Source: Natranaerofaba carboxydovora
Lineage (GTDB): Bacteria; Bacillota; Natranaerobiia; Natranaerobiales; Natranaerofabaceae
DNA length: 64,000 bases
Direction of reading: 5' to 3'
NCBI RefSeq assembly: GCF_022539405.1
Contig: NZ_CP054394.1
Span: forward strand, 1,682,501 to 1,746,500
The translations under genes and the position numbers were made by a program. The notes under the pieces are model-generated. The model made no database searches. It worked only from the letters and a program-made list of their open reading frames with translations, and was not told where the DNA came from. This document shows positions 186-37,501 of this stretch, piece after piece. Numbering within the stretch: position 1 is the stretch's first letter; the number at the start of each line of letters is the position of its first letter.

Positions 186-2339
186 TTAATTTTCTATTTC
201 ATATTCTTTAATCTTTTTGTATAACCAGACTCGACTTATCCCGAGGCTCTTTGCAGTCTTGGTTTTATTCCACTTATTTTTATATAACGCATCCATAATC
301 TCGTCTTTACCAATAGTCTTACCATTACTTGTTGAATTATTTTTTGATATAACTTGTTTTTCTTGTTTTATGTTTTCAGCATTTTCAATTAAAAATTCAG
401 GTAAGTCGTTTGTCGTAATTTCATTGTCATCACAAAAGTTTATTATTCTTTCAACAGTATGCTTTAGCTCTCTTACGTTACCAGGCCAAGAATAATTTGA
501 CATCAAAGCTATTGCATCATCTCCTATGCCTTTAATATTCTTATCAAACATCTCATTAAATTCTTTAATAAAACTTGATACCAATAGTGGAATATCTTCT
601 ATTCTATTTCTCAATGGAGGAATTGTAAAAGAAATTACATTAAGCCTATAATACAAATCAGCTCTAAAGCTCCCCTCCTCTATTTTTTTCTCAATATCTT
701 GATTGGTGGCTGCGATTATCCTTATATCAGATTCTATTTGATTAATTCCACCAACCCGTTCAAATTTTTTATCTTGCAATACTCTTAAAAGTTTGGCCTG
801 TAAAGATAATGGCATGTCTCCAATTTCGTCTAAAAAAACAGTCCCTTTGTGGGCAATTTCAAATTTTCCAGGTTTACCTTTCTTTTTAGCTCCAGTAAAA
901 GCTCCTTCTTCATATCCAAAAAGCTCAGATTCAAGTAAGTTTTCGGGAATCCCAGCACAATTTATTGTCACCAGGCGATTTGAAGACCTTTTGCTATTTA
1001 CATGGATTGTTTGTGCTAACAAGTCTTTGCCAGTTCCACTTTCACCTCTTATCAAAACTGTTGAATCATGCTTAGCTGCATCCTTTGCCAACCCCAAAAT
1101 TCTTTTCATTTTATCATTAGAGGTAATTATATTTTCATCTGTAGATCTTTGTTTTTGAATTTCTTTCTCGTAATAGGCAAGCTTATTATTCATAGAATCT
1201 ATTAGTTCAGCTAATTCTATAATATCTTTAAAGTTATTAAATATCATTTTGCCTACAGCGCCAATAGGCTTTCCATTTTCTTCTATAGGAATGCCTGATT
1301 GGATATATCTTTTATTTTGATAATCTCCAATTTTATTTTTAAAAGGTTTCCCTGTTTTGGTTACTTGCCCAAGCTTGCACTCTTCAATAACATCATTGAT
1401 GTGGGAATCAAGTAAATTTTTATTTGATTCCTCAACAAACTCACCGAAAGCAGTATTTGAAAATTTAATTTTCCCTTTGTTATCAATTACAACAATCCCA
1501 TCACTGTCAATATTTAGTACAGTTTCTAATGTTGACGCAATATTTTTATAAGCTTGAAGTTCCGAAGCTAGATTTTCTAAATCATGTATATCCTGCAAGG
1601 TGGTAATTGTTCCTACTACCTTCTTCTTGTCAACAATTGGGGTAACATTTATAAAATATCGCTTATCATTAATGCTGACTTTTTGGGCAACTACTTGTTT
1701 TTCTGTCTCAACCACGCTTTTAACAGATTCATCAATATTAGGAGCATAGGAAGATAAATCGCTACCCCTTACACAACTAGCTGAAACATCAAATATTTTT
1801 TCTGCAGCTTTATTAATATTTATTATTGTTCCTTCTGTATCACTAACAATAATGCCGTTATATATGTTTTTACCTATAGAATTCATTTGGTTAAGCAAAG
1901 AATCAATATGATTAAATAAAGTAGAAATAAGATCTTCTTTTGTAATAACCCCTGATAATTTGTTGTTTTTATTAACTACTATTACATATCCATGAGGGTT
2001 TTTGGCAGCAATATCAATAAACTTTTCCAGGACAACAGCTTCATTGATAACCCATACTTCACTGTTGATAAAAGGGTCGATTTTTGTGTCTAATTCATAC
2101 CCTTTAGCTAATGCATTCAATATATCTGTCTTAGTTAATAATCCTATAGGCTCTTCGATCTTGTTAACCACAGGCAATCCATCTAATTTATCCTGGTTTT
2201 CTAGCAATTTAATTGCATGATAAAAGGTATCTCCAGGATATAAGACATTCTCACATTTATACAAAATATCTTTTGATTTTATTCCTGAATCCACGACAAA
2301 CTTACCGGTCAAAAATTGTTTAGTTGTACCTACATACAT
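186..2339 (-). CDS. sigma-54-dependent transcriptional activator with CBS and PAS sensor domains
   Basis: This 717-residue bacterial enhancer-binding protein activates RNA polymerase carrying sigma-54 by ATP hydrolysis. Domains in order: a CBS pair (about 20-145), a PAS domain (about 155-255), a second PAS-like domain (about 272-370), a short coiled linker (375-400), an AAA+ core and a Fis-type helix-turn-helix (about 675-712). Walker A GESGTGKD is at 432-439 and the sigma-54 contact loop GAFTGA at 479-484, so it should be an active activator. CBS pairs usually bind adenosyl ligands, and PAS domains bind small molecules or cofactors. The ATG has GGGGAG 7 nt upstream. It is the last gene behind two acyl-CoA synthetases and a permease, and 23 bp separate it from the nearest synthetase. 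A sigma-54 promoter upstream of the permease makes self-operon control likely (inference). Confidence 0.93.
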   Translation of the reverse strand: MYVGTTKQFLTGKFVVDSGIKSKDILYKCENVLYPGDTFYHAIKLLENQDKLDGLPVVNKIEEPIGLLTKTDILNALAKGYELDTKIDPFINSEVWVINEAVVLEKFIDIAAKNPHGYVIVVNKNNKLSGVITKEDLISTLFNHIDSLLNQMNSIGKNIYNGIIVSDTEGTIININKAAEKIFDVSASCVRGSDLSSYAPNIDESVKSVVETEKQVVAQKVSINDKRYFINVTPIVDKKKVVGTITTLQDIHDLENLASELQAYKNIASTLETVLNIDSDGIVVIDNKGKIKFSNTAFGEFVEESNKNLLDSHINDVIEECKLGQVTKTGKPFKNKIGDYQNKRYIQSGIPIEENGKPIGAVGKMIFNNFKDIIELAELIDSMNNKLAYYEKEIQKQRSTDENIITSNDKMKRILGLAKDAAKHDSTVLIRGESGTGKDLLAQTIHVNSKRSSNRLVTINCAGIPENLLESELFGYEEGAFTGAKKKGKPGKFEIAHKGTVFLDEIGDMPLSLQAKLLRVLQDKKFERVGGINQIESDIRIIAATNQDIEKKIEEGSFRADLYYRLNVISFTIPPLRNRIEDIPLLVSSFIKEFNEMFDKNIKGIGDDAIALMSNYSWPGNVRELKHTVERIINFCDDNEITTNDLPEFLIENAENIKQEKQVISKNNSTSNGKTIGKDEIMDALYKNKWNKTKTAKSLGISRVWLYKKIKEYEIEN

Positions 2340-27513: not shown

Positions 27514-28875
27514 TCAACCAACCAAGATTTTCTCTTCAGGATAACGAATTCTAGGGTCCTCTCTATCCCTGGCCAAAGCAAATGCTAAAGTCAAAGGGCC
27601 TAGTCTACCTATAAACATTGTAATTGTAATTAGTATCTTACCAACATTTGTTAGATCAGGTGTTAGCCCTCTAGACAAACCAACAGTCCCAAATGCCGAA
27701 ATTGTTTCAAATAATACATCAATAAACTCAGCTTTTTCACTCATAAGTAAAATAAGAGCTACTATGAAAACAGCAAGCAAAGAAATAAAAATTATTGCCA
27801 CCCCACGTGTAATTAGCTCGAAAGGTACCCTTCTTTCAAAGAAAGAAACGTCTTTTTTCCCTTGTAAAACAGCTATTACAGTAAAAAATAATACGCCAAA
27901 AGTCGTTGTTTTTATTCCTCCGCCAGTCGAAGCAGGAGAGGCACCAATAAACATCAAAACCATTACAAAAAGGGTAGTTTGGTTTAGTAACTCATCAGTA
28001 GGCAGTACATTAAAACCAGCAGTCCTGGGAGTAGCCCCTGTGAAAAAAGAGGTTAAAATTTTTTCTGAAAATGACAAACCTTTTAATGTTTCAGGGTTAT
28101 TCCACTCCATAAATATAATGCCAATAAAACCCAGTATTAACAAACCACCGGTTATAGTTAAAGCTGCCTTTGTGTGAAAACTAAACTGAAGCCAGTTTCT
28201 ATTGTAAAATAAATCAATAACTACTGTAAAACCAAGGCCGCCCACAATGAATAAAAGAGGTATAACTGTTAGAATAACCACATCATCTGCAAAAGGGGTC
28301 AAACTTCTAAAGTTTCCAATAAGATCAAAACCGGCATTATTAAAAGCACTAATCGTATGAAAAAGTCCATAATAAAACCCACGACTAAAACCATACTCTA
28401 CTGCAAATCTACTACCTAGAATTAGTGTCCCTATACTCTGCACCACTACAGTCAAAATAAGAACATATTTTACGATCCTTACAGTTCCAGACAAATCAGT
28501 TTGATTTAGTGCTTGCTGTATAACAAGCCTTTCTTTTAAAGATATCCTTTTGCCCAAAATAATAAATATTAGGGTAGCCATGGTCATAAATCCAAGGCCA
28601 CCCGCCTGGATTAATAACATTATCACAATTTGACCAAATATAGTAAAAGTAGTTCCTGTATCAACCACTACAAGGCCTGTTACACAGACTGCAGATGTTG
28701 CAGTAAACAAAGCATCAATTACAGGCAAGGAGCCTTGCTTTACTGTAGCTATAGGAAGACTAAGTAAAATAGTCCCTATTATTGTCAGCGCTAAAAAACC
28801 AAAAACCAGCACCTGTGCCGGCGAGAAACTTCTTTTGCCTTTTATCCCATTTGCCCCTTCGTTTCCTTCGTTCAT
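27514..28875 (-). CDS. TrkH/KtrB family potassium transport subunit
   Basis: Ion-conducting membrane subunit of 453 residues with four M1-P-M2 repeats. The first selectivity loop reads TSAVCVTGLVV; the later pore loops are HTISAFNNAGFDL, GATPRTAGFN and ETISAFGTVGLSRGL, each with the expected glycine. It should take up K+ (or Na+/K+) driven by membrane potential. The C-terminus IRYPEEKILVG is short and cytoplasmic. ATG preceded by GGGGTG. Directly upstream of its RCK partner and downstream of rplT, so potassium uptake may be co-transcribed with ribosomal genes. Confidence 0.94.
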   Translation of the reverse strand: MNEGNEGANGIKGKRSFSPAQVLVFGFLALTIIGTILLSLPIATVKQGSLPVIDALFTATSAVCVTGLVVVDTGTTFTIFGQIVIMLLIQAGGLGFMTMATLIFIILGKRISLKERLVIQQALNQTDLSGTVRIVKYVLILTVVVQSIGTLILGSRFAVEYGFSRGFYYGLFHTISAFNNAGFDLIGNFRSLTPFADDVVILTVIPLLFIVGGLGFTVVIDLFYNRNWLQFSFHTKAALTITGGLLILGFIGIIFMEWNNPETLKGLSFSEKILTSFFTGATPRTAGFNVLPTDELLNQTTLFVMVLMFIGASPASTGGGIKTTTFGVLFFTVIAVLQGKKDVSFFERRVPFELITRGVAIIFISLLAVFIVALILLMSEKAEFIDVLFETISAFGTVGLSRGLTPDLTNVGKILITITMFIGRLGPLTLAFALARDREDPRIRYPEEKILVG

Positions 28876-34095: not shown

Positions 34096-34491
34096 TCATA
34101 AGTCAAAATCATGATTACTATTACCAATCTTCTCTCTTATATCTTCATCAAGTAAGTGAGTAATACCTGCTACTCTTTTTACTTCTAACACAAAAGTAAT
34201 ACCTTTTCCTGGTTTGTCAAGCTCCGCTTCTTCTATTATAGAATTTAATACCTTATCAACGTCATCTCTAGGTACAAGAGTCAAAATTATATCTTTTTCC
34301 GGTTCGATTGTTATCCCAAAGAGTTTAGCTTTTTCGTGAATTCCTGTACCGCGTCCTCCTAATATAGTGCCTCCTTCTGCCCCAGCATTTTTGGAAGCTT
34401 CTACCACCAAATGAGAACGACCTTTATTAACAATAGTTATGATAAGATCGAATTTCACTTTACATTCTTTTGTTTTACATTCTTCATTCAT
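34096..34491 (-). CDS. P-II-like signalling protein (second copy)
   Basis: 131 residues with the ferredoxin-like P-II fold. The core has KFDLIITIVNKGRSHLVVEAS, GAEGGTILGGRGTG and, near the end, GITFVLEVKRVAGI, as in P-II family nitrogen regulators. The T-loop is short and lacks the uridylylated tyrosine of GlnB, so it belongs to a non-canonical group. These trimers sense ATP/ADP or other small ligands. Its N-terminus has two Cys (EECKTKECK) and its C-terminus is extended. The ATG overlaps the stop of the previous P-II gene (TAATG). Confidence 0.88.
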   Translation of the reverse strand: MNEECKTKECKVKFDLIITIVNKGRSHLVVEASKNAGAEGGTILGGRGTGIHEKAKLFGITIEPEKDIILTLVPRDDVDKVLNSIIEEAELDKPGKGITFVLEVKRVAGITHLLDEDIREKIGNSNHDFDL

Positions 34492-34835
34492 TATCCTTCA
34501 ACCCCCTTTAGCAAGTGAACAATACCATCAATCTTCTTTAAATCCATCACAAACACAATACCATTACCAGGTTTGTTTAGCTCACCCTTTTCCACTATTG
34601 CATCAAATACTTCGTCTTCTATTTTATCATTAACAACAGTCAAAACCACTTCTCTATCATCATCTAAGGTAAGTCCAAAAATCTTTTTAAATTCTTTCAC
34701 ACTAGTACCCTTGCCAAGGATCGTAGTCCCACCTTCTGCACCGGCTTTTTTGGCTATATCACATATTTTTTTGGCTTTACCCTTCTTGACTATAGTAATT
34801 ATTACGTTGTGATTCTTTTTCAAGTTCTCGTTCAT
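34491..34835 (-). CDS. P-II-like signalling protein (first copy)
   Basis: 114-residue P-II-like protein, similar to the next gene: HNVIITIVKKGKAKKICDIA, GAEGGTTILGKGTS and GIVFVMDLKKIDGI. It also lacks a canonical long T-loop with tyrosine. Its ATG lies 59 nt inside the 3' end of the DUF1538 gene, in another frame, with AAGGAG 7 nt upstream. The two genes are therefore out-of-frame overlapping and likely coupled. Likely role: ligand-dependent control of the adjacent membrane proteins (inference). Confidence 0.88.
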   Translation of the reverse strand: MNENLKKNHNVIITIVKKGKAKKICDIAKKAGAEGGTTILGKGTSVKEFKKIFGLTLDDDREVVLTVVNDKIEDEVFDAIVEKGELNKPGNGIVFVMDLKKIDGIVHLLKGVEG

Positions 34836-35559
34836 TTTGCTTCTCCTTTCTCAAATAAACTAAACCTAAAAGTAAAACAGACAATATAGGAATCAATGCA
34901 ACTAAAGCAATCATTCCAAAACCTTCAACTAGGGGATCTCTTCCTTCTATTTGGGAAGCAACCCCTACTGAAAAGGCCATGATAAAGGTCACTGTCATTG
35001 GACCTGTTGCAACTCCACCTGAATCAAAAGCAATTGAAACAAAGTTTTCTTTTGTAATAAGTGTAGTCGCAAGGGTCAAACCATAGCCAGGAAGTAAAAT
35101 ATACATAAACGGTATACCAAATATCGTCCTTATCATAGCGATAGAAATAGCTAACCCTACACCTAAAGATAATGTCATAAGTAAAACAATTTGTGGTATA
35201 TAACCAGCCGAAACTTTTTCAACTTCATCACTTAATGCTCTTACAGCAGGCTCTGCAAAAGTTGCCACTGCTCCTAGGATAAAGCCTACAACTATAACAA
35301 CCCATTTACCCGTATGTTCAATCATTCCTTGACCTAATATCTCCCCAACAGGCAAAAATCCAACATGTACCCCTTGTAAGAAAAAAACTATCCCAACAAA
35401 AGTAAGGATTACACCTTTAACCATGTTCAACACTTCCATACGGGGTAATTTCAAATAAACAAGCTGAAAGAATATAAAAAATAAGACCAAAGGTGCCAGA
35501 GCTATAGAAACCTCTAAAATTGTGTCTAAAAATCCTTCAAATATAACGACTTCGTTCAA
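34777..35559 (-). CDS. DUF1538 membrane protein (second copy)
   Basis: 260 residues, about seven hydrophobic segments. It carries the DUF1538 signature region ISFDSGG-like VSIAFDSGGVATGPMTVTFIM, preceded by the AEPAVRALSDEVEKVSAG segment. Function in the family is unknown. The charged C-terminal tail (RKEKQNERELEKESQR) is the part that overlaps the P-II gene. TTG start overlaps the TGA of the preceding DUF1538 gene by 4 nt, with GGGGGTGAT upstream. It and the preceding gene look like two halves of a pair, probably a heterodimer (inference). Confidence 0.85.
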   Translation of the reverse strand: MNEVVIFEGFLDTILEVSIALAPLVLFFIFFQLVYLKLPRMEVLNMVKGVILTFVGIVFFLQGVHVGFLPVGEILGQGMIEHTGKWVVIVVGFILGAVATFAEPAVRALSDEVEKVSAGYIPQIVLLMTLSLGVGLAISIAMIRTIFGIPFMYILLPGYGLTLATTLITKENFVSIAFDSGGVATGPMTVTFIMAFSVGVASQIEGRDPLVEGFGMIALVALIPILSVLLLGLVYLRKEKQNERELEKESQRNNYYSQEG

Positions 35560-36248
35560 CCGTAAATCACCCCCAAAATCATCACACCAATCACCGGTCC
35601 AATTGATGCAAGAGCCACAAATCCGAAATTATCTGGTTTGCCACTCTTACTACTTAAAACAGATGTCACACCAACACCAAGAGCTATAATAAAAGGAGCT
35701 GTTAGAGGACCTGTAGTAACTCCTCCGGCATCAAAAGAAATAGGCACAAAAGATACCGGTGTAAAGATTGACAAAATAAAAACACCTGTATAGCAGACAA
35801 TTAAAATATACTTCAGAGGAATATTGAATACAATTTTGATAATAGACATAGCCACAAAAATACCTACCCCTATTGCTACAGTATAAATCAAGATAAAATT
35901 AGGTATCGCACCATCCGATACCATATCAATCTGAGATGCAAGCACTCTTACATCTGGCTCTGCAGCTGTCACCAAAAAACCTAGTACAAAAGCATAAATT
36001 AGAATAAGACTTAACTTTTGTGTTTGTGGAATCATATTTCCAATAGACTCCCCCATAGGGAGTAAGCCGATTCGTATTCCCACAAGAAAAAATATAAGCC
36101 CTAAAACTACAAATATTAATCCAACTAAAAACTGCAGCACTTCTTCAATAGGTGAAGATAGTACGGCTATCATTAATAAAAAAACAACTATGGTTAATGG
36201 TAATACAGCCTGCAAAACTTCTAAAGTAATTTCTTTTAGTACTTTCAT
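35556..36248 (-). CDS. DUF1538 membrane protein (first copy)
   Basis: About 230 residues with seven hydrophobic segments and the same family marks as its neighbour: AEPDVRVLASQIDMVSDG and ISFDAGGVTTGPLTAPFIIALGVG. ATG at 36248 is preferred because AAGGAG lies 11 nt upstream. An upstream TTG (36281) has no such site. It is the first gene of a tight group DUF1538-DUF1538-P-II-P-II, followed after about 50 bp by UbiA. Function unknown; a solute or ion carrier under P-II control is plausible. Confidence 0.85.
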   Translation of the reverse strand: MKVLKEITLEVLQAVLPLTIVVFLLMIAVLSSPIEEVLQFLVGLIFVVLGLIFFLVGIRIGLLPMGESIGNMIPQTQKLSLILIYAFVLGFLVTAAEPDVRVLASQIDMVSDGAIPNFILIYTVAIGVGIFVAMSIIKIVFNIPLKYILIVCYTGVFILSIFTPVSFVPISFDAGGVTTGPLTAPFIIALGVGVTSVLSSKSGKPDNFGFVALASIGPVIGVMILGVIYG

Positions 36249-36463: not shown

Positions 36464-37501
36464 ATGAATACAACAAATAATGCTTTAAAAATACTGATTT
36501 CAATTGTCTCAGTTATTATAATTGGAACAATAGGATACATGCTCCTTGCAGGGCTTGGACCATTAGACGCCTTATATATGACAATTATTACTATATCAAC
36601 TGTTGGATTTATGGAAGTTGCTCCACTTAGTCAGGCTGCTAGATTATTTACTATTTTTTTAATTATAGCCGGGTTAAGTGTTGCAGCTTATGGCTTTTCT
36701 TCTATTGTATCATTATTTTTTGAAGGTGAAATCCAGGAATTAATCAGGAGGAGAAAAATGCAAGACAAAATCTCTAAGTTAAACAACCACTATATTTTGT
36801 GCGGAGCAGGAGAAACAGGTTACAGTGTCATTTCACAGTTCAAGCGAAGCGAAGCAAATTTTGTAGTTATTGAAAAAGATGAAGAGATGTGCAGTTCTTT
36901 AGCAAATGAAGGTATTTTAACTGTTCAGGGGGACGCAACTCAGGAAAAGATTTTACACAATGCCAACATAGATAACGCTTGGGGATTAATTTCATGTTTA
37001 TCCAGAGATACCGATAATGTATATACTGTTCTAACAGCCAGACAGCTTAATCCTGATTTACATATAGTCTCAAGAGCCATTAACCGGGGCTCTCATTCAA
37101 AACTAAAAAGAGCTGGTGCTAACAATACTATTTCACCAAATGAATTAGGTGGCGCTAGGATGGCTTCACTATTGCTTAAGCCTTCTGTAGTATCCTTTTT
37201 AGATGTAATAACTCAGGCAGACGAAATCATGTTAGACTTAGAAGATGTAGTGATATGCGAAAACTCAGAGTTTAAAAATAAACAACTAAAAAACGCTAAT
37301 ATAAAAGAAAAAACTGGACTGATGGTCATAGCTTTAAAGAAAAAAGGTGATGAAGACCTTGTATTTAACCCCAGTCCAGAAGAGTTATTAGAAGAAGGAG
37401 ACCAAGTTTTAGTTCTTGGTAAACAACAGCAAATAAATCTGTTAAGAAACCTTGCCTGTGACTTAGGAACTAGAAAAAACATAAACAAACGTGAATTGTA
37501 G
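36464..37501 (+). CDS. TrkA-domain potassium channel with variant selectivity filter
   Basis: 345 residues: two membrane helices flanking a pore loop (about 10-80), then a cytoplasmic RCK_N domain (LCGAGETGYSVI, about 110-230) and RCK_C domain (about 250-335). This is the MthK/YugO-like layout of ligand-gated K+ channels. The pore loop reads TISTVGFMEV where TVGYGD is usual, so the second filter glycine is Met. Other family members tolerate changes here, but selectivity may differ. ATG with AGGAAAG upstream. Divergent from the DUF1538 genes and tail-to-tail with the next gene. Confidence 0.9.
   Translation: MNTTNNALKILISIVSVIIIGTIGYMLLAGLGPLDALYMTIITISTVGFMEVAPLSQAARLFTIFLIIAGLSVAAYGFSSIVSLFFEGEIQELIRRRKMQDKISKLNNHYILCGAGETGYSVISQFKRSEANFVVIEKDEEMCSSLANEGILTVQGDATQEKILHNANIDNAWGLISCLSRDTDNVYTVLTARQLNPDLHIVSRAINRGSHSKLKRAGANNTISPNELGGARMASLLLKPSVVSFLDVITQADEIMLDLEDVVICENSEFKNKQLKNANIKEKTGLMVIALKKKGDEDLVFNPSPEELLEEGDQVLVLGKQQQINLLRNLACDLGTRKNINKREL

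Follow-up and report, generated by a model that had tools for sequence, protein, structure and literature searches.

DUF1538 membrane proteins are near-obligately coupled to P-II proteins across many bacterial phyla and archaea. Here we describe this coupling for a module of four genes in Natranaerofaba carboxydovora, two encoding DUF1538 subunits (D1 and D2) and two encoding P-II-like proteins (PIIa and PIIb), which lies in the stretch of 64,000 nucleotides that was analysed (hereafter the window). The module looks like an ion transporter under sensor control that is widespread in bacteria and archaea and uncharacterised to date. Our preferred reading, held with moderate confidence, is that D1 and D2 together would form an antiparallel cation/H+ exchanger that is modulated by its dedicated P-II proteins.

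The four-gene module and its setting

All four open reading frames were found on the minus strand (Table 1), and the overlaps of 4, 59 (out of frame) and 1 nt reported for them in the initial annotation are exact to the base. D1 and D2 pass the Pfam gathering score for DUF1538 (22.6 bits), PIIb passes that for P-II (25 bits), and PIIa barely does so. D1 carries the conserved AEP and FDxGG motifs, and the C-terminal tail of D2 is hydrophilic and basic. Among relatives, the 4-nt overlap of D1 and D2 was the most frequent geometry (65 of about 98 pairs), and an overlap of some length between D2 and P-II was usual (119 of 167 cases, with starts picked by rule). Since both arrangements are common, the tight packing of these genes is a conserved trait, beyond what chance would give. 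The length of the D2/PIIa overlap is not conserved and represents a lineage-specific extreme, overlaps of more than 30 nt having been seen in 17 of the 167 cases.

Table 1. Features of the module, of its surroundings and of two further P-II loci of the genome. Positions are those of the window unless a locus is named.
Feature	Position	Strand	Description
D1	35556-36248	minus	First DUF1538 subunit, predicted 7 TM; PF07556 241 bits; start ATG 36248, preceded by a clear AAAGGAG; stop ends at 35556
D2	34777-35559	minus	Second DUF1538 subunit; PF07556 245 bits; start TTG 35559
PIIa	34491-34835	minus	Diverged P-II-like protein, 114 aa; PF00543 26.9 bits; start ATG 34835 with a good Shine-Dalgarno sequence, 59 nt ahead of the D2 stop
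PIIb	34096-34491	minus	P-II-like protein, 131 aa; PF00543 38.3 bits; start ATG 34491
D1/D2 stop/start overlap, TTGA	35556-35559	minus	4 nt, read from sequence
D2/PIIa out-of-frame overlap	34777-34835	minus	59 nt, read from sequence
PIIa/PIIb stop/start overlap, TAATG	34491	minus	1 nt, read from sequence
K+ channel with TrkA-N/C domains	36464-37501	plus	Diverges from the module
TrkH gene	27514-28875	minus	Further on from the module
Canonical P-II gene, then AmtB-type ammonium transporter gene	L003, G000:C1:1457550-1460864		
Very divergent P-II-like gene	L005 (G000:C1:2786957-2790256), 1492-1854		Directly upstream of what reads as a Na+/H+ exchanger-type gene

The position of the module next to potassium genes, noted in the initial annotation, carries no weight. 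In six relatives, TrkH, the K+ channel, UbiA and ThrS were all absent up to a distance of about 9 kb from the module. The nearest of the six, with D1 and D2 proteins 80-83% identical to those of the window, had no other gene of the window over that distance either. Likewise, no first-neighbour family recurred across 80 loci (at most four members each). The potassium-gene context was therefore rejected as a substrate clue, the neighbours being unconserved even at this level of identity. The genome contains one DUF1538 pair and four P-II genes. The possibility that the P-II proteins of the module represent the canonical nitrogen P-II was also rejected, because a separate canonical P-II gene stands beside an AmtB-type transporter gene at L003, and nitrogen P-II signalling is thus served elsewhere in the genome.

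Linkage of DUF1538 and P-II genes

Profiles for both DUF1538 and P-II were used to scan 80 loci from named genomes and about 100 loci from Bacillota-type, spirochaete, desulfobacterial and archaeal genomes. A P-II domain was encoded directly downstream and on the same strand in 175 of 184 distinct DUF1538 clusters from many bacterial phyla and archaea; these clusters were taken from top-scoring matches, which under-represents DUF1538 proteins of high divergence, and related genomes among them are not independent. The median distance from the last DUF1538 domain to P-II was 35 nt in this survey. Of the nine clusters without an adjacent P-II, three are cut off by the end of a contig or locus (with weak P-II matches further on in one case), one consists of a piece of an interrupted gene, one results from the wrong splitting of a D-D-P-P-D-D locus by the clustering, and one is an archaeal cluster with P-II 2.7 kb downstream. 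Only two Sutcliffiella (two species) and Metabacillus lacus (L078, L090 and L096), which keep D1-D2, lacked P-II of this type, with no match genome-wide. These three represent useful natural P-II-free controls.

Consistent results were obtained with 299 genomes from the phylum of the window. Searches for DUF1538 and for PIIb were each positive for 100 genomes, 99 of which were common to both; one genome had DUF1538 only, one P-II only and 198 neither. Both partners were hence present in 99 of the 101 genomes having either, and the module occurs in about a third of the sampled genomes. The nominal Fisher value for this co-occurrence (7e-78) overstates the evidence because the 299 genomes are not independent. 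The families with the DUF1538/P-II link cover many orders and phyla and both domains; in Pseudomonadota two plasmids were seen, both with the order DUF1538-DUF1538-P-II. The initial annotation had called for a co-occurrence survey of this kind and had regarded DUF1538 pairs mostly without P-II as speaking against its reading, and the outcome was strongly the opposite. In the literature searched, where DUF1538 itself is rarely mentioned, the DUF1538-P-II link was absent.

The two partners are also found in a single polypeptide. A natural fusion of 617 aa from a Spirochaetales metagenome-assembled genome (L133:1917-3767) comprises D1, D2 and part of a P-II domain, and was the only clear D-P-II fusion found. 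A separate tandem P-II gene lies upstream of this fusion. The initial annotation had proposed a P-II-gated heteromeric carrier. Co-occurrence and fusion support a heteromeric carrier made of DUF1538 subunits, to which the P-II partners are dedicated; its gating, that is docking of P-II and control of flux by it, we infer.

DUF1538 and P-II genes occur in a series of forms. At least 10 genomes, including one whose chromosome is a single contig, have a single D gene with a single P-II gene. Archaea commonly have D-D with one P-II, a form with desulfobacterial and alphaproteobacterial examples as well, Bacillota and Balneolota commonly combine D-D with either two P-II genes or a single fused tandem P-II gene, and fused D-D with fused P-P is found in Clostridia and spirochaetes. 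Some loci showed further arrangements. At L172, L177 and L184, large DUF1538 proteins of about 640-710 aa are followed by a protein of 370-390 aa with three P-II-like domains, and at L105:3018-6693 two fused DUF1538 genes flank one tandem P-II gene (order DD-PP-DD). At L007/L025 (G038:C1:603389-606503), D1 seems to be interrupted, a gap of about 2.5 kb separating its N- and C-terminal parts; D2 and the two P-II genes are intact. Short unannotated records labelled 'Listeria phage' or faecal phage (H10-H16, OR847559.1 and others) encode DUF1538 as well; these genes are probably bacterial DNA in those records.

Orientation, fold and substrate of the paired DUF1538 subunits

For one DUF1538 pair, UmpAB of Halomonas zhaodongensis, Na+(Li+,K+)/H+ antiport by a heterodimer, optimal at pH 9, was reported in 2017: UmpA and UmpB, each predicted to have 7 TM, co-immunoprecipitate, and they rescue an E. 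coli antiporter mutant only when both are expressed (PMC5484666). Neither P-II nor an inverted topology is mentioned in that paper, and in our own judgement the antiporter claim depends on a single laboratory's E. coli KNabc system. A growth-pH model also lists DUF1538 in its table of genes for pH adaptation (PMC13255231). In view of UmpAB, the description of the membrane proteins in the initial annotation as having no known function or substrate is too sweeping for the family; the sequences of the window's own pair are distant from UmpAB. UmpA and UmpB are the nearest NCBIfam models to the window's D1 and D2 (NF041627/NF041628), at 107-135 bits as compared with equivalog cut-offs of 490/500 bits, and D1 and D2 are thus homologues that are not filed as UmpAB. 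Because these scores are so far under the cut-offs, the substrate of the window pair may differ from that of UmpAB.

Although a carrier of two different subunits had been recognised in the initial annotation, their inverted orientation had been missed, and the prediction that D1 and D2 are inserted in opposite orientations is new here. The charge bias of each subunit was calculated on a 7-TM model by counting Lys and Arg in the loops of the N-terminal side and subtracting the count for the loops of the opposite side. The window's D1 and D2 had biases of +7 and -6, respectively; the averages were +6.4 for D1 and -4.4 for D2 of split genes, and +5.5 and -6.7 for the two halves of fused genes. 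Its signs were opposite in 158 of 162 pairs, and D1 exceeded D2 in all 162. These values resemble those of known antiparallel pairs (+7, +6, -6 and -7), dual-topology proteins ranging from -2 to +1 (Table 1 of PMC3962082). Because of their opposite bias, D1 and D2 are best read as an antiparallel heterodimer, in which D1 is predicted to have its N-terminus inside and its C-terminus outside, and D2 the reverse (N-out, C-in). For 10 single-gene D proteins the mean bias was +2.0 (range -1 to +6), with seven of the ten between -1 and +3; this mostly weak bias, of the kind expected of dual topology, is suggestive of it and not conclusive.

Single-gene, paired and fused forms are likewise found in DUF606, SMR (EmrE) and YdgE/YdgF-type proteins, the pairs of which have, as in DUF1538, an opposite bias of about +7/-6, and the singles one near zero; these proteins, however, have fewer TM helices and no linked P-II (PMC3962082). 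As 7 TM, an odd number, are predicted for each DUF1538 half, direct fusion would keep the inversion. In an unrooted D-domain tree obtained by a quick search, the singles fell between two separate clades, D1 (SH-aLRT 99) and D2 (SH-aLRT 100). One desulfobacterial D pair clustered with itself in this tree, which suggests a second, independent duplication, and D1 exceeds D2 in bias in the separately duplicated lineage as well.

A fold was predicted with AlphaFold2 for a fused relative from Metabacillus malikii (52-row alignment; pLDDT 88, pTM 0.88). In both halves of the model, helices are broken at the AEP and FDxGG motifs. Searching the PDB with DUF1538 sequences gave no match, and a Foldseek search of the model against the PDB returned nothing with E <0.001 (best E 0.019, TM at most about 0.2). 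The Glu of AEP, the Asp of FDxGG and one Arg/Lys are nearly invariant across D1, D2 and singles. On the basis of this conservation, the membrane acids, one set per half and each with the conserved Arg/Lys, would be the likely site for ion and proton.

An exchanger of the same architecture might nevertheless carry something other than Na+ or K+ against H+, such as a divalent cation, an anion (bicarbonate) or another solute, with the activity of the UmpAB type being a side or subfamily property. We regard this as unlikely. It would accord with the distance between UmpAB and the window proteins, with the occurrence of DUF1538 not only in halophiles but also in gut anaerobes, methanogens and spirochaetes, with MgtE_N neighbours at two loci, and with the fact that P-II-type proteins of other transporters handle ammonium (AmtB-GlnK) and bicarbonate (SbtA-SbtB). 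The only experiment on the family, however, revealed monovalent cation/H+ antiport (PMC5484666), the invariant membrane acids of both halves suit cations and protons, DUF1538 was listed among pH-adaptation genes (PMC13255231), and the neighbouring genes indicate no substrate. We retain exchange of a monovalent cation for H+ by D1D2, by analogy with UmpAB, as the preferred reading.

The P-II proteins and the control of transport

As stated in the initial annotation, the P-II proteins of the module have short T-loops and lack the modified tyrosine. In the alignment the T-loop falls 6 residues short of that of E. coli GlnK, and none of the 276 sequences aligned (107 PIIa, 107 PIIb and 62 single P-II) has Tyr51, so that all of them differ from canonical GlnB/GlnK, which have Tyr51 in a full-length T-loop. 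Judged from the sequence alignment, PIIb also lacks the canonical ATP/2-oxoglutarate residues Arg38, Lys58, Lys90, Arg101 and Arg103, the majority residues being Ile38, Glu58 (100%), Ile90 and Gly101, with position 103 variable; Thr29, Gly35 and Gly89 are kept. In place of the canonical motif, the family has GRGTGIHE...IEPEKE...PGKGIAF, which reads GRGTGIHE...IEPEKD...KPGKGI in PIIb of the window and is degenerate in PIIa. The single P-II of one-sensor modules is closer to PIIb than to PIIa, and of the two PIIb would thus be likelier to act as the sensor, with PIIa as its diverged partner. The P-II tree was built from too few columns for either PIIb or the single P-II to be placed as the ancestral form.

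A model of the tandem P-II comprised two P-II-like domains, with low confidence in the T-loop region and the linker. Foldseek matched it to ordinary P-II structures and to other ferredoxin-like folds, and for this reason does not point to a ligand class. The best PDB match of the P-II family profile was 9p1x_H, which we take to be a P-II of the NifI1/NifI2 general type. NifI1 and NifI2 are paired P-II proteins of nitrogenase. They resemble the P-II proteins described here in being two adjacent paralogues for one target, but nitrogenase is a soluble enzyme whereas the target here would be a membrane transporter, and the sequence similarity is weak.

Gene order, D/P-II coupling, the fusion, charge bias, conserved residues and the loss of canonical P-II residues were computed here, and antiport and heterodimerisation are taken from the literature on UmpAB. 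Building on these, we propose that D1 and D2, as homologous 7-TM subunits inserted opposite ways, would jointly make up an antiparallel inverted-repeat secondary transporter. A P-II-type trimer or heteromer of PIIa and PIIb would dock on the cytoplasmic face of this transporter, and binding of a small ligand by the P-II complex would alter transport, with either sign of gating conceivable. The ligand would probably not be read via the canonical ATP/2-oxoglutarate/Tyr51 chemistry. As UmpAB worked alone in E. coli and a few genomes keep D-D without P-II, P-II is best regarded as a modulator and not as an obligate subunit.

P-II-gated transporters are known for ammonium and bicarbonate, AmtB-GlnK and SbtA-SbtB, respectively. 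As in these systems, the P-II gene stands beside the transporter gene in the 175 clusters, and cytoplasmic docking and ligand-dependent control would be expected by comparison. DUF1538 differs from both in having no sequence match or confident fold match in the PDB, and the P-II proteins of the module differ in the short T-loop, in the loss of Tyr51 and of Lys90/Arg101/Arg103, and in the presence of two paralogues per transporter.

P-II could also use D1D2 as a membrane anchor or sensor and then act elsewhere, with no gating of the transporter. In other systems P-II proteins are signal carriers with several targets, and the different conservation of the two P-II copies suggests separate roles for them. 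Against such a transceptor, linkage and phylogenetic profile connect P-II with DUF1538 alone, with no third partner recurring, and a P-II domain tethered to the transporter, as at L133, is ill suited to act elsewhere, so that we judge it quite improbable. Co-transcription alone would be compatible with P-II-like proteins that, with no physical complex, respond to a shift in ions or pH caused by the transporter and in turn affect metabolism, but the domain fusion, the near-perfect co-occurrence in the 299 genomes and the matched gain of copies, from one D and one P-II up to two of each, make this highly improbable.

If exchange by D1D2 is indeed under P-II control, such control reaches beyond ammonium and bicarbonate to ion and pH homeostasis, via a transporter that has no solved relative. 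More broadly, and only tentatively, DUF1538 may represent a structurally new superfamily of dual-topology-derived ion exchangers of bacteria and archaea, every one of them served by a P-II sensor of its own that belongs to a new ligand class. Such a superfamily would have arisen by stepwise duplication and fusion (D+P, DD+P, DD+PP, fused DD with fused PP, D-D-P fusion), and its P-II-gated cation/H+ exchangers would be distinct from AmtB-GlnK and SbtA-SbtB in both fold and sensing chemistry. The complete series of forms, which runs from single genes through inverted pairs to fusions, makes a good case for the evolution of inverted-repeat transporters, and makes what this branch of P-II senses a directly testable question.

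The very divergent P-II-like gene at L005 is perhaps part of a second P-II/antiporter pairing in this genome. What follows it reads as a membrane protein of the Na+/H+ exchanger type (CPA-type) in two adjacent frames.
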